From NCBI GenBank assembly GCA_964034945.1, contig OZ035963.1:38632361-38696360 (forward strand): 64,000 nt of DNA, read 5' to 3'. Position 1 is the stretch's first letter, and each line of letters begins with the position of its first letter. This DNA is from Chrysopilus asiliformis (taxonomy: Eukaryota; Arthropoda; Insecta; Diptera; Rhagionidae). Positions 3,232 to 43,534 of the stretch are shown here, piece after piece. Below the pieces are notes generated by a model that saw nothing but the letters and a program-made list of their open reading frames with translations, was not told the DNA's origin and ran no database searches. The position numbers and the translations under genes are program-made.

Positions 3232-3498
3232 TTAACACTCATACTGTCCTCGGGTCATATCTGACCCAAATTCGATTTTAATTAAAAGTATCTTCTCAAC
3301 TACATGAACAATGTTTGTATGGTGTAGGCTCTGTGAACAAATTTCTTTTGAATACCGAAAACAATAATCTATTTGTTCATATTTTAATCCATTGAAGAGC
3401 ACTGTAGTTTTCATGGGTCATAAATGGGTCATAATGGGTCATTTTTCACCCACGAAGACATCATACGTTATTTTTCTTAAGGACAGTATGAGGGTTAA
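3232..3498. mobile_element. TTAA-flanked MITE (piggyBac-type target), 259 bp
   Basis: TTAA at 3232-3235 and 3495-3498 flanks inverted ends: CACTCATACTGTCCT on the left and the complement of CCCTCATACTGTCCT on the right. The TTAA duplication is the signature of piggyBac-like elements (established). Inside, three near-identical ATGGGTCATA units lie at about 3414-3442. No coding capacity; presumably mobilised in trans. Confidence 0.75.
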
Positions 3499-3585
3499 GA
3501 AACTGAAATAAAGACATTTATTTAGTAATTTTCTCGTGTTATATTCTGCAGATACCCATACAAGCCCAACCGATCCCGTTATATT

Positions 3586-3603
3586 TGGTGTTAGAAGTGG
3601 GAT
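3586..3603 (+). other. Primer binding site matching tRNA-Leu, Ty3/gypsy element
   Basis: TGGTGTTAGAAGTGGGAT is the complement of the 3' end of insect tRNA-Leu except for one or so differences. This marks the junction between a 5' LTR (ending about 3583-3585) and the internal region. The LTR itself is decayed and its left end is not clear; the MITE at 3236-3494 probably lies in or near it. Confidence 0.7.
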
Positions 3604-3671
3604 ATTTTTAAAATAATAAAAATTAGTGAGTGAGCTAAAAAAGTGAATTAGTGAAGCTCTCGTCAAAGAAT

Positions 3672-4560
3672 TCGGGAAATAAGGCTGAACTCATTCACAG
3701 ACTCAGAGGAGTACTTCAAACCAACGGCGTAGATCCGGAATCCGCTGTTTTCCAGATGCTGTGAATCAAATGTTGAAAAGCGCGCTGCTGCAGCGGCTGC
3801 TCTGCCCGCTGCAGCTACTCCACTCGTTTCTACTACTTGCGCAGATACAATAGATTTTAATGCCATAATAGCCGCAATGCAGCGGTTTAGCAATACTAGA
3901 AAAATATAGTAAACTCGATTCAGCAAAATCAGGCCGCGTTAAAGAGCGATCTAGAAACTTCTATACAAGCAAATCACCGGGGATCTAATGCAATGGCAGA
4001 CCATTCTGAAGGGATCTGGAATCATCGTGTGATAAACGTAAGCTATATTGAAAAAAGAATTGGAAGTATCACTAAAGCAGACGAAAATGGAGCTTGAAAA
4101 ATCTGCGCTACAAAAATCACAAGTGAAATTAGAAACAAAGTTGAAAGAACAGCTCAAGAAAGAATTGAGAATTCGCATCGAGGCGATCGACGAACGAATT
4201 AATCTGATAGGCAAGAGAATTTATGATCGAATACAGAAAGAAACTAAAGACCGGATCGGACGAATGGACAAAGTATAGAAAGAATTGCGCGTATTCTGAT
4301 TATTCTGATAGAATACCACAGACAAGATAAGCTAGATCCTTGGTGAACTTGGCGGATAAAAAATCTGTGCCGATATGTGTCATGAACGCGTCAAAACAAG
4401 CAGCCGAACTGAAGAAGAACTTAGTTCACCGGTCAAGGCACCGGTCAAGGCACAACACTGATCCATCAATTGCACCAGAAAGGAAAACTAGATTGACATG
4501 GCAAAATGGAGATCAAAGTAGCCCGAGACTTATTGAATACAAGTTTGCGGAACAGTGATG
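3672..4560 (+). pseudogene. Gag remnant of a Ty3/gypsy element
   Basis: Just after the PBS, a broken frame reads NKAELIHRLRGVLQTNGVDP, like the SAP-type motif with which gag of many insect gypsy elements starts. Further on, 4048-4278 encodes a highly charged, probably coiled-coil segment (KKELEVSLKQTKMELEKSAL..) and 4340-4558 a basic, Arg/His-rich stretch. There are several stops and frame changes. It is called gag from its position between PBS and RT; the central capsid and zinc knuckle are not recognisable. Confidence 0.5.
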
Positions 4561-17301: not shown

Positions 17302-17375
17302 CATTTCTTACTTAAATATCTATTGGCGATCGTTGTAGGCGGATCCACGTCTCCTGGCCGTCTATACGAGACAGA
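17302..17375 (-). repeat. Dispersed repeat also flanking the inverted-LTR element
   Basis: The reverse complement (GACGTGGATCCGCCTACAAC, then GATCGCCAATAGATATTTAA) matches 38596-38623 joined to 43533-43560. The copy here is uninterrupted and therefore serves as the empty site for the retroelement at 38624-43530. The repeat's own nature is unknown; it lies next to the TTAA MITE in both places. Confidence 0.75.
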
Positions 17376-17778
17376 CACCTCTTTTTCCTATATTTTCAAA
17401 CTTTTAACATTTTCAATTAAAATGAATTTCATTTTATTCAATTGTGGCCATAAGACATCTGGTAATTGAATGGAAATGGTTTCGAGATAAACAAAAATAA
17501 AGTAAATATTCTATTCAAAGAAAAATATTAAAATTCTAAGAGGTCGAGATAATCAAAAATAATTAGAATCAGGATCAGCACCATGCAGAAAATTGAAGAG
17601 GGGATAAAAGCGATGTTAACAGGACCTTTCGTTTCCCAAGTGGTTATCTTTTTGTTCTTCCAGTCACAGTAAAAGTTTATATTTCAAAATACATTTTCTT
17701 AAATAAGTTAAGCATATTGCTGCTAAAATTTTAAAACGATCCAGATTCATCTTTAATTTGAAATCAACCTAAAATAAG

Positions 17779-38535: not shown

Positions 38536-38623
38536 ATCCAAAATAATACCCCATCGCTACGTCAAAAAAAGCAAGGTGTCTGTCTCGTAGAGACGGTCAG
38601 AAGACGTGGATCCGCCTACAACG
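38536..38623 (+). repeat. Dispersed repeat, left part
   Basis: CAAAATAATACCCCATCG at 38541 recurs at 43666, and the 38596-38623 part matches 17375-17330 on the minus strand. It continues beyond the retroelement at 43531, so the retroelement inserted into this repeat. Confidence 0.7.
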
Positions 38624-38879
38624 TGTAGCGTCCTGGAGGGGATCTAGGCGCGATGTTGATTGGAATGAAGAATTTCGCACGGGGTGATATCGACACGCTA
38701 GTTACGGCTTCGCTCGTCGGATGGTCGTAGGTTGATTCCCCGTATTTCTCTCCTCCAGAAAACCACATAATAAATTTTCGTGTCGTATGTACTTATTTGT
38801 CATTTAAGAAATAGGGAAAAGGATAAGGGATAGGAGAGATAAGGAAGGGTCGAAACATTTTTCAATATTCTACTAGACA
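38624..38879 (-). repeat. LTR, minus orientation (left end)
   Basis: 256 bp, TGTCTAGTAG..GGACGCTACA when read on the minus strand. By eye it differs from the right LTR at one position (T versus G near 38827/43328). The outermost end is U5. Confidence 0.9.
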
Positions 38880-40853
38880 GTTGCCATGAGGGCAAAAATC
38901 CTGTTTACCGCTCATCATCGCACCACCAACTAAAACACTTGATTTAGAACATTATAAATGTATGATAAATTATCATTACAAAAATTTATTACCAAACATA
39001 AATGATGTAAACATTATGAGACGAAATCTTAATACCTAAATTAAACTTCTGATACTAATAATAAAATGGTGTAAATATCTACCACCGGTATATTCAGAAA
39101 TATTACAAATGTTAATATTAAATTTATACAACAAAAAAAACTTATCAAACTAACACCACTTATACCGCGAAATAATTCGTTTCGCATTCGATATGTATGA
39201 ATATGATTAACGGATTGTTTATTGTTCAAATTTCCTAATCCTGATATGGGCCCATATGGATTTAAATAAATATATATAATGGAACTCTTAATAATGCCGA
39301 AAGTGGGGTAAATTGTACACTAAGGAAATCAAATTACTGATAGCACAAAATTTTACTTTAAGAAACCTCACAGGATAGGTAAAAACAAACTTCTAATTCT
39401 TAGTTACTAAAAATAAAGGCTATTTAACTTAATATCCTACAATATTTCTTTGATTACACGCAGTATCGATAACAGGACCCGAAAGTTCTGTGAAATGCGT
39501 AATCGGCTCGCATTTATATAGCCTTTTGATGATCTTTGACGATTTCTCCAAAAGATCTTGGTCCCGGAAAATGGTAATTATAAATGACTTACAGTTTATC
39601 CTGAGGGTTTACCGAATTTCCTGCCCGCTTTAGATGTGAATTATGATCTTCGATTTCTGGTTGTATTTGTCTCCTGTCCGGAACCTATTTACTCGAGTCT
39701 TTACGGTGGATGGAGCTTTTAGTTGATGGAGTCTTAAATGTTCTCCGGTCCGGAACGTGTTTGTCCGAGACTTGAAGATCGCAGGAGCCTTAAACAGTCG
39801 ATGGAGTCTTAAATAGTTGATGGAGTCTTAAATGTCCTCAGGTCCGGAACGTGTTTGTCCGAGACTTGAAGGTCGAAGGAGCCTTAAACAGTCGATGGAG
39901 TCTTCGGTCCGACACCATAAAAGTTCTCCAGTAAATGAGTTTAAGTTCGGTTGTTCGGATTTATAAAACTCTCCTCCCCTAAAATTCACCTCCCGTGCCT
40001 TTGCGCTGGTGTAATTCTTGAAATATCTCTTGTGTAACTCTCGATTTATTATGAAAATCTTGGTTGATTATAAGGTCTGCTAATCCACAATATTTTTATC
40101 AACGTGGTTTCTTTTACGAACTAAGAAAAACCTCATTTAGCCTCAATATCCTTTCTTTGTTAAAAAAAATACTTACAGCACGAAAAAATGTAAATTTTTA
40201 TGAATAGTACTGAATATTTTAGTAACTTTCTCCAAAAAAAATTACTAAATCAAATATCTAGGGGAGGAGAAATCCCCAACACGTCCAGCGCCACCAGTAG
40301 AAAAAAAGTAGAGACCAATAAACCACACCACTCATAAAGCTTAGCCGGAAAAGGAGCCATTTTAGGATCTACATCTATTTATTTCTAAGACTACGTTTAT
40401 TCGACGCTGATGTGAAATTATAGAGAACCCGGAAATCTACTTCAATTGAAGTACCATTTGGAAATTGTAGGGCGCCATGCAAGGTCAAAATGAACTACTA
40501 ACTGGATGTACTCTAGTTCATAGGTGACTGCTACAACACCAATCATTTTGACGAGCTTGTGTAGTCAAAAAGTTTGGAAAAACAGCACCGAATCTCATAA
40601 TTTCCGAAGGAAATTGATGTTTCCAATAATTTTTTTTTGGATTGTTTCGATATTCTGCTAGTAGTAAGTTATCGTGGTGAAGAACCCACCAGTCGAAAGC
40701 CGGGCTATACTTACTAGAATATTTACCTGACAACTTAACCTCTACCTAGGTATGGTATATCATAGTCATTTGGTTATTTGTAGTGAACTAGGTTATTTTT
40801 AGTTTTCGTACTCCAGGATAGGTTATTTTGAAAATTCCCTTGTTTGTCTAAAT
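38880..40853 (-). other. 3' untranslated part of the retroelement, no env recognised
   Basis: On the minus strand this 2 kb lies between integrase and LTR. It includes the 33 nt before the LTR that are shared with the right half (GCGGTAAACAGGATTTTTG). A purine-rich GGGGAGGAGAG at about 39970 (minus strand) could be a polypurine tract of a nested LTR. The open frame 40518-40733 (minus) is not recognised, and no envelope or membrane protein is seen. Confidence 0.5.
39706..39910. repeat. ~100-bp tandem duplication in the retroelement 3' region
   Basis: The block GGTCCGGAACGTGTTTGTCC-GAGACTTGAAG..GAGCCTTAAACAGTC occurs twice, with extra TGATGGAGTCTTAAAT repeats around it. No coding. It lies between the integrase and the LTR in the reversed half. 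Confidence 0.7.
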
Positions 40854-41914
40854 TTAAGATTTTATGTCTTTGACGTGAAAAGTACCTATTTTTTTTGTAT
40901 CTAAATCTTCGAGCTCATACATATTTTTCCCAATAGATCTTATAATGCGGGCTTTTTTGAATTTGTTACATAATTTCGCGTTGATATCTTTTTGCTTATC
41001 ACTTAAAATGAAATTTCTCCTAAAAATAGTTTGCCCCGGTTGAAACACTACTTTCCTTGATCGGAGATTGTAACCATGACTGGCTTTTAAATATGCTTGG
41101 TGCAAATTTTCCTGAATTTTAGCCCGTATTACTTCCAATCTGTTTGATTTTGGTAACATTTGTATTTCATTATCTTGTAGCAGTTTTAGGTTTCTTAATA
41201 GTGAGTAACTACTACCGTGATTCACCATGTTAGTCCCAAATAATGCATAATAGGGAGACATTCCAATGGCTGAATGTTTCGCTGTTCTCAGAGCGCATTC
41301 AATTTCGCTAAGATGTTCGTCCCAGGACTTCTGAGAACCTTTAAGATACGCCCGGATGGCAGATAAAACGGATTGATTCACCCTTTCCGCTGAATTGGAT
41401 TGAGGGGAATAATAAGCTGTCCGAATGTGTTTCACACCGTGTTTAGTTAAAAATGCTTGAAATTCGTTAGATAGAAATTGCTTTCCGTTATCAGAGTGAA
41501 GGTATTGAGGTACTCCGAACTTATGAAAAATATCGGCTTCTAAGAATTGAATAGTATTTTTACTATTTGCCTGTCGTAATGCTTTCATAAATACGTATTT
41601 CGTGAGGTGGTCTAGTACTATTAGAATGTAGCAATTACCAGTTTTAGAGCGAGGATAAGGACCTAAATAATCGATATAAATCTTTTGAAACGGACGATCT
41701 ATTAAAGTTTCTGTACTGATTTCTGGGCGCAAAGTTTTATTGGATGGTTTGATTTGTTTACAGATGTCACAATTTTTCACGTACTCTTTTACCTGAGTCG
41801 CCATATTTGGCCAAAAATAATGTACTCGTAGGCGAGAGAGTGTCTTCGCTAGGCCCCCATGGGCCGCTTGAGGGGGTTCATGAGCTTGGATGATTAAACC
41901 CTGTGACAAATTCT
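40854..41914 (-). CDS. Ty3/gypsy integrase (open, 5' truncated)
   Basis: About 350 codons without a stop. H2C2 finger: HEPPQAAHGG..CDICKQ. Catalytic triad: IDYLGPYPRSKTGN (Asp), LHSDNGKQF (Asp), SPQSNSAERVNQSVLSAIR (Glu). C-terminal chromatin/DNA-binding part ends ..GTFHVKDIKS. The apparent ATG at 41930 lies in LTR-derived sequence (codons MLIGMKN), so the native pol reading frame is cut at about 41908-41914. The integrase would insert retroviral-type cDNA; here it has no RT upstream. Confidence 0.85.
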
Positions 41915-41959
41915 TCATTCCAATCAACATCGCGCCTAGATCCCCTCCAGGACGCTACA
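41908..41959 (+). repeat. 52-bp U5-end LTR fragment at the internal junction
   Basis: Identical to the last 52 bp of the LTR (..TCCAGGACGCTACA) and directly joined to the PBS. It contains TCATTC (41915-41920), a match to the arthropod initiator, so the fragment may begin almost exactly at the RNA 5' end. The join with integrase sequence shows a few bases of microhomology (AAATTCTT). Confidence 0.85.
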
Positions 41960-41963
41960 TAAT

Positions 41964-41980
41964 TGGCGCCCAACGTTTGG
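41964..41980 (+). other. Primer binding site, tRNA-Lys
   Basis: TGGCGCCCAACGTTTGG follows 4 nt after the LTR fragment and matches the complement of the insect tRNA-Lys 3' end (TGGCGCCCAACGTGGGG) except near its end. It fixes LTR orientation. Confidence 0.85.
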
Positions 41981-42786
41981 TTAGAGTCCCTTAACGGACA
42001 AATCAAACAAATTAGTCCTTTTAATTTCCTGTATATCCCTATTTAAATTCTTATAGTAATCTTATGCTGATTTTTGCGATACCTAATCAGAAATCAAGTT
42101 TTAAGAACTATTATAAAAAGAGCAAATTTTTTCCCACAACTAATTTCTATTCCTTATTTCAATTAGATAAATTCTCAATATCAGATAATTTAGCTAGTAA
42201 TTCTTATAAAGTATTTTGAGTCCCGAGGCATGAAGTTAGTTTTACAAGATGTACCTGCGTTGCCGGAATATTTTTTGTAGGAAGAACTAGATAAATACTT
42301 GCAATTTGGGGTACAATCAAGGTGTATTGCTCCAGCTTTAAATTGTTGAAGCCGCGTAGCAGTCGCAACTAAGATTGATACAACAAAATGATTTCTATTT
42401 AGACAACATTATATTAAACGTGAGGAAGATTTCGCTGTGATTTGTGTCCTGAGTTATAAAGCCAATAGGCATAATAATTTGAGTTGCCAAATCATAGTAG
42501 AACTTCGTTTGAAATCAAAGCAAGAAAAGTACTCTTTGTAAGTCCTGTGATTCAGTAAAGGGACACAGTTGCTACACTGATTGCTTTAGTAATATTAAAG
42601 TAGATTTTTTTTCCATATACTAAATTTCCCTATCCTTGTAACCTAAAGGCGAAACATTTTTGAACAAAAAAGTATTAATTTAACCGCTCATCTCGTATTC
42701 ACCAACTATTTAATGAATGAGTATTGTTATTATTATCAATTGTTGTGTTATAAGATTATTACACCGTTACGGAAGATTAGGGTGAT

Positions 42787-43281
42787 ATGAGTTATACATA
42801 TAAGACTAAAAGGGAGCGAAAATCTAAGTCTATACGTGTGCCAGAATATCGTAGAATTACCAGGGGTTATATTAAGGATTTGAAATTTTCCGAAATGTTT
42901 CATTCACCACCAAAACCCACCAGTGCTATAGCATCGGACTCATCTAATCTTGTTAGTTCAAACCAATTACCCAATATTCAAGAATTAAATAAGGATCCGA
43001 GTCTTAATAAAACAGATACTAGACCTCATTCGGTATTACACTCGCCGGTTGAAGGTGCCGCTTCGCTGGAAGCTCAAAACCTATCCACTGAAAGAATATT
43101 ATCCGCACCTGCACATTCCAGGCCTTTAGCTACTGGAACGATTAGAAAAGAAAGTAGACGAACCACTCCTATCTCTGCAAATGAAAACACTGCAGCTTTT
43201 GATATGTCAGAGTTAAAGAAATATTTAGAGGAAACAGTTAGAGCGGTAAACAGGATTTTTGCCCTCATGGCAACTGTCTAG
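42787..43281 (+). CDS. Gag-like ORF of the retroelement, truncated at the 3' end
   Basis: 164 codons starting MSYTYKTKRERKSKSIRVP, basic at the N-terminus, then Ser/Pro/Asn-rich. The frame runs past the deletion junction (about 43241) into the shared pre-LTR sequence and stops in the LTR. No capsid or zinc knuckle is visible. It is called gag only from its place after PBS and leader. 41981-42786 is leader with no clear ORF. Confidence 0.5.
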   Translation: MSYTYKTKRERKSKSIRVPEYRRITRGYIKDLKFSEMFHSPPKPTSAIASDSSNLVSSNQLPNIQELNKDPSLNKTDTRPHSVLHSPVEGAASLEAQNLSTERILSAPAHSRPLATGTIRKESRRTTPISANENTAAFDMSELKKYLEETVRAVNRIFALMATV

Positions 43282-43530
43282 TAGAATATTGAAAAATGTT
43301 TCGACCCTTCCTTATCTCTCCTATCCCTGATCCTTTTCCCTATTTCTTAAATGACAAATAAGTACATACGACACGAAAATTTATTATGTGGTTTTCTGGA
43401 GGAGAGAAATACGGGGAATCAACCTACGACCATCCGACGAGCGAAGCCGTAACTAGCGTGTCGATATCACCCCGTGCGAAATTCTTCATTCCAATCAACA
43501 TCGCGCCTAGATCCCCTCCAGGACGCTACA
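43275..43530 (+). repeat. LTR, plus orientation (right end)
   Basis: TGTCTAGTAG..GGACGCTACA, 256 bp, about 99.6% identical to the reverse complement of 38624-38879 by eye. It contains a tRNA-like stretch near 43415-43470 (the complement reads ..GGTCGTAGGTTGATTCCCCG). Confidence 0.9.
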
Positions 43531-43534
43531 AACG

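Follow-up and report, generated by a model that had tools for sequence, protein, structure and literature searches.

Positions 38624-43530 of a 64,000-nt window of the Chrysopilus asiliformis genome (the whole stretch of DNA analysed, C4:38632361-38696360) hold a unit of Ty3/gypsy origin that carries the U5 (unique 5′) end of a long terminal repeat (LTR) outermost on both sides. The two inverted arms are 290 nt long with a single mismatch (38825 versus 43329), a difference of 1 in 290 sites (95% interval 0.009-1.9%), and each adjoins a copy of the same tetranucleotide:

38620-38623: left target-site duplication, AACG, adjoining the U5 end of the left arm
38624-38913, minus strand: left inverted arm, the final 290 nt of the LTR, U5 end outermost
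43241-43530, plus strand: right inverted arm, the final 290 nt of the LTR, U5 end outermost
43531-43534: right target-site duplication, AACG, adjoining the U5 end of the right arm
17302-17386, minus strand: uninterrupted copy of the target repeat, with AACG present once at the insertion point

The target repeat is very abundant in the assembly used for the genome searches (429 Mb in 42 contigs), with 2502 first-look candidates; the best 40 of these 2502 all match, of which 39 span the insertion point and the remaining one is the copy inside the window. A second empty copy, at C4:37.155 Mb (in L027), also has AACG once, and the empty site matches both flanks of the insertion.

Relatives in the same assembly were used to assign the parts of the unit. 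L030 is an ordinary element with an LTR pair of 2456 bp (99.96% identity), a duplicated CATG, a gag with a Retrotrans_gag domain and a pol with protease-like, reverse transcriptase (RT), RNase H and integrase domains, and L031 is also ordinary, with an LTR pair of ~3.1 kb and a duplicated CAAT. Duplications of 4 bp (CATG, CAAT) are therefore present in both of the relatives whose two outer flanks can be read; L032 and L033, whose LTR pairs reach the ends of the stretches examined, were excluded from this count. By comparison with these elements, the left half of the unit, which reads on the minus strand, contains:

38624-40535, minus strand: complete LTR of 1912 bp, U5 end outermost at 38624 and start TGTAGCAGTCACCTA at 40535, as assigned from L030 and the relics L026 and L027
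40536-40853, minus strand: 3′ noncoding stretch from the integrase stop to the LTR (269 nt in its L030 equivalent)
40854-41909, minus strand: integrase from codon 16 to the stop, with H2C2 zinc-binding, DDE core and C-terminal parts
41910-41954, minus strand: 15 codons of antisense U5 that share the integrase frame and include ATG at residues 9 and 13
41908-41909: junction J1, a head-to-head join of integrase and LTR tail with a 2-nt overlap (LTR identity from 41908, integrase homology from 41909)

The LTR was placed at 38624-40535 because its start, TGTAGCAGTCACCTA, matches TGTCGCAGCCACCTA, the LTR start of L030, and lies at a similar distance past the integrase stop (318 nt in the window versus 269 nt in L030). 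Two diverged relics on the same contig (L026 and L027, 79-93% identity in pieces) end at or near the boundary of this LTR, and L026 is probably no solo LTR, since some ten bases of similarity continue beyond that boundary. The start and end of the LTR have six terminal bases in common (TGTAGC/GCTACA). On this comparison the left end of the unit is a complete LTR, the right arm just its last 290 nt and the internal stretch at 41908-41959 its last 52 nt; that the arms are themselves LTRs of 256 bp is ruled out by the LTR lengths of the relatives (2456 bp in L030, ~3.1 kb in L031). Within the LTR, two 91-nt direct repeats (96%) occupy 39720-39904. No obvious polypurine tract precedes the 3′ LTR in the window (40536-40575) or in L030-L033, and the bases just before it are TGGTGT in the window, L031 and L032 and CGGTGC in L030. 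The region of relic L027 (C4:37153500-37163000) additionally contains, at 3497-3793, a helix-turn-helix fragment of a P-element transposase (Pfam Tnp_P_element, 2.3e-16), near both the LTR relic of this element's lineage and the empty target copy.

The integrase open frame (40854-41954, minus strand, 366 aa) is uninterrupted and has the H2C2 (5.6e-17) and rve (1e-16) Pfam domains of a gypsy-type enzyme. Its homology to relatives begins at residue 16 (position 41909) in 16 of the 16 relatives aligned, at 62-68% identity over 350-351 aa, and the portion of pol that should precede codon 16 is missing at J1. An intact Ty3/gypsy element has two direct LTRs, RT and RNase H, whereas this unit has one complete LTR with an inverted LTR tail opposite, and no Pfam match to RT or RNase H was found in the 13 open frames scanned (of 19 listed). 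Of 1060 candidates in a protein search with the integrase part (351 aa), 136 reached E <= 1e-20; none of the 120 listed exceeds 58% identity, and the 13 that were listed with an organism name come from the flies Drosophila, Ceratitis, Rhagoletis and Episyrphus.

The right half reads on the plus strand and contains:

41908-41959, plus strand: LTR tail, the last 52 nt (U5 end), identical to the outer arms
41964-41980, plus strand: primer binding site (PBS) TGGCGCCCAACGTTTGG, 4 nt past the LTR end, with spacing and core as in relatives
41981-42786, plus strand: untranslated leader, with short blocks conserved in relatives
42787-43244, plus strand: N-terminal part of gag, cut at J2, in which FDMSELKKYLEETVRA aligns with FDMSELKKFLEETLRA of relatives
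43241-43244: junction J2, joining gag to the LTR tail 290 nt from the LTR end, with a ~4-nt overlap, GAGC (AGAGC in the gag of relatives, TGAGCGG in the LTR)

As in the relatives, the PBS module consists of TAAT followed by TGGCGCCCAACG. The exact 21-nt 3′ end of tRNA-Lys has no match in the assembly and 58 matches when 2 mismatches are allowed; none of 4 loci taken from the latter was called as a tRNA by ARAGORN. Searching with 73 nt of tRNA-Lys yielded 40 matches (81-94%), and 3 of those loci likewise held no tRNA according to ARAGORN. The N-terminus of gag can be aligned to L029 and L030 as far as EET-(L/V)RA, and J2 lies where this homology ends, removing the remainder of gag, pol and most of the LTR. 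It is unlikely to be a splice junction, as the relatives have no GT at that position of gag. A resemblance between the leader (42680-42708) and the antisense LTR near the arm boundary was not significant (local score 31; mean 26.9 and maximum 34 in 60 shuffles).

Much of this layout had been seen in an earlier reading of the window (the original prediction), which described AACG outside both ends (38620-38623 and 43531-43534), a gypsy integrase on the minus strand (where the H2C2 and rve domains lie) and, on the plus strand, a PBS and gag-like frame, both of which can be aligned to relatives. The empty target copy that it placed at 17302-17375 was recovered and now extends to 17386; the inverted 256-bp LTRs that it reported at the two ends are indeed inverted, as arms of 290 nt, but are not whole LTRs, the LTR being 1912 bp.

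A search of the assembly with the LTR end found four places, namely both arms, the 52-nt tail inside the unit and a relic of 85 bp. The right half matched nothing but itself (1 candidate), as did the gag piece (22 candidates). The integrase part of the left half had no genome DNA match above ~71% among the best 40 of 139 candidates. None of the queries (LTR end, left half, right half, gag piece) detected a second copy of the inverted form, nor was a close parental copy found in the assembly. The sole young copy found of this lineage is the scrambled one, with no close copy of its leader, gag or integrase (41960-43240, 40857-41897) despite its near-identical arms.

These data bear on whether the unit is an artefact in which two insertions of one family were collapsed into a false head-to-head structure. 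Near-identical arms are a classic trigger of misassembly, and the evidence comes from the assembly alone; however, AACG stands on both sides, the empty site matches both flanks and no further close copy open to collapse turned up in the searches, so an artefact is very unlikely.

What is directly observed is how the halves are arranged, that each end of the unit stops exactly at an LTR terminus, that one duplication is common to both sides, that an empty site exists and that the joins have short overlaps. Two exact U5 termini that share a 4-bp duplication, together with an empty site that fits both flanks, argue for one concerted event in which a linear DNA ending in U5 on each side was integrated. 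We therefore favour, with a probability of roughly 78%, a single insertion of a rearranged linear Ty3/gypsy-type complementary DNA (cDNA) that had U5 at both ends, was joined head to head and was integrated concertedly. The claim of the original prediction that a single inversion within a normal provirus cannot place both U5 ends outermost is supported, and its proposal that two partial genomes were joined head to head and inserted by their two U5 ends is still the best explanation, once its whole-LTR arms are dropped and the second junction, J2, is added.

In this reconstruction one piece would comprise the 3′ part of the genome, from integrase through the complete 3′ LTR, and the other a genome whose 5′ LTR had been cut to 52 nt (U5-PBS-leader-gag) and in which a deletion had fused gag to the final 290 nt of the LTR. 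Joining of the pieces head to head at J1, which we infer to have preceded or accompanied integration, would yield a linear DNA with a U5 terminus at each end, and integrase would then process both U5 ends and insert them together, leaving the 4-bp duplication. The growing strand may have switched twice, in gag and between U5 and integrase, onto other templates of the same family during reverse transcription; this route is somewhat the likelier, with end joining of two defective cDNAs not far behind, and the overlaps of 2 nt at J1 and ~4 nt at J2 are compatible with both. The integration step is plausible because complexes of HIV-1 integrase can bind two U5 duplexes (PMC3623958).

Several points weigh against this reconstruction. 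It concerns a single case known from an assembly, and the overlaps at J1 and J2 are only estimated from relatives, since no parental copy was found for the lost sequence. The 290-nt right arm might be a putative product of minus-strand strong-stop synthesis, but this is suggestive at most: a TATA-like site 333 nt from the LTR end would predict a start at ~300-308 nt and not at 290, and there are further TATA-like sites. Lastly, the six bases shared by the two LTR ends leave possible room for a templated rearrangement after integration. An ordinary provirus in minus orientation could have lost its right half and had the left 290 nt copied in by microhomology-driven repair; on the right such a provirus would normally finish with GCTACA, the six nt that also close the U5 end, so that a switch there would keep AACG, and the arms differ at only 1 of 290 sites. 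Such a history nevertheless requires, besides J1 and J2, one more join falling precisely on the element terminus, and no inverted arrangement occurs among neighbouring LTR pairs of three relative families, in which 33 of the 33 distinct pairs among the matches listed are on the same strand and 0 on opposite strands. (In this control the U5 ends of the three families were searched and neighbours 1-20 kb apart were paired, giving 11, 13 and 12 rows, less three repeats; for two of the families the best 40 of 49 and the best 40 of 72 candidates were used.) A later rearrangement is thus unlikely, though it is the most probable of the alternatives considered.

Inversions also arise by autointegration, and the unit resembles the products of that process in being an inverted retroelement cDNA. 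Autointegration yields deletion or inversion circles, with joints formed by attack of an LTR end on internal DNA (PMC2644782), whereas no such joint is seen at J1 or J2 of the unit, and a lone cDNA would supply just one U5 end. An autointegration product inserted later is thus unsupported, because neither join contains an LTR terminus, and we regard it as extremely improbable.

Closer parallels to a rearranged cDNA are the complex LTR insertions attributed to template switching, which were recognised from outer LTRs that resemble each other and have a duplication in common (Sabot and Schulman 2007, PMC1950507). Those insertions are large direct-repeat structures with three LTRs and two complete core sequences. 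Like them, the unit would derive from an abnormal cDNA of two genomes and has one target duplication, near-identical outer repeats and an internal LTR piece; unlike them, its halves face each other, and it has one complete LTR, partial cores and U5 at both ends. A literature search of open-licence PMC papers found no description of this U5-out arrangement. DIRS-type retrotransposons have inverted terminal repeats together with a tyrosine recombinase and are not known to make a target duplication, in contrast to the DDE integrase and 4-bp duplication seen here.

The unit had also been said to mimic a Ginger-type DNA transposon, that is, an element with terminal inverted repeats (TIRs) and a gypsy-like transposase. 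The outline is shared, as the unit has TGTNR termini, TIRs, a 4-bp duplication and a gypsy-like H2C2/DDE protein, here an integrase-like open frame with in-frame ATG codons. In the published description of Ginger (PMC2836005), TIRs measure 40-270 bp in Ginger1, 50-180 bp in Ginger2 and 260-297 in TDD-4/5, so that 290 nt falls within the TDD-5 length and above the Ginger1 and Ginger2 ranges. The same description presents the families as mobile DNA transposons, describes no PBS or gag, and gives CCGG/CCGT and RTATAY as the targets of Ginger1 and Ginger2, respectively (PMC2836005), unlike AACG. By contrast, the interior of the unit holds a PBS, leader and gag, its arms are the tail of a 1912-bp LTR, its integrase has its closest genome matches in gypsy pol genes that also encode RT and RNase H, no OTU or Ulp1 domain was found by Pfam on the 366-aa frame (a difference from Ginger1), and one copy was found instead of multiple copies with their own duplications. 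The likeness is therefore superficial, and a true Ginger-type element can be set aside as hardly credible.

The original prediction further suggested that the unit may illustrate the origin of TIR transposons from LTR elements. The check that it named, a search for other copies with the same internal junction and different flanks, found none in the assembly, and nothing indicates mobility of the inverted form, because no second copy of the junction-bearing stretches was found; with all 33 listed relative pairs on the same strand, the suggestion is not borne out. The unit does combine inverted U5 ends with an uninterrupted integrase frame that gains in-frame ATG codons from antisense U5, and reverse-transcription errors that make an integration-competent two-U5 cDNA could in principle produce a ready-made TIR element, as a first step from LTR retrotransposon to Ginger-like DNA transposon; nothing suggests that this copy has itself moved, and we hold such a step to be highly doubtful.

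The unit is genuine as well as unusual, and its most fitting classification is as an aberrant product of reverse transcription and integration. If correct, the favoured reading would make it a natural, cleanly duplicated integration via two U5 ends, implying that integrase in vivo needs no pair of U3 (unique 3′) and U5 ends and that a faulty cDNA can be inserted as neatly as a normal one. J1 and J2 also offer concrete joins to look for elsewhere, as a way of learning how often TIR-like structures arise from LTR elements in other genomes. In L031 (C1:23133000-23142999, reverse strand), modules of LTR end plus PBS (..CTACATAATTGGCGCCCAACG) occur twice, at 450-475 and 540-565, ~90 bp apart; their pairing in a multi-copy relative suggests an older strand-switch event that became fixed in that family.

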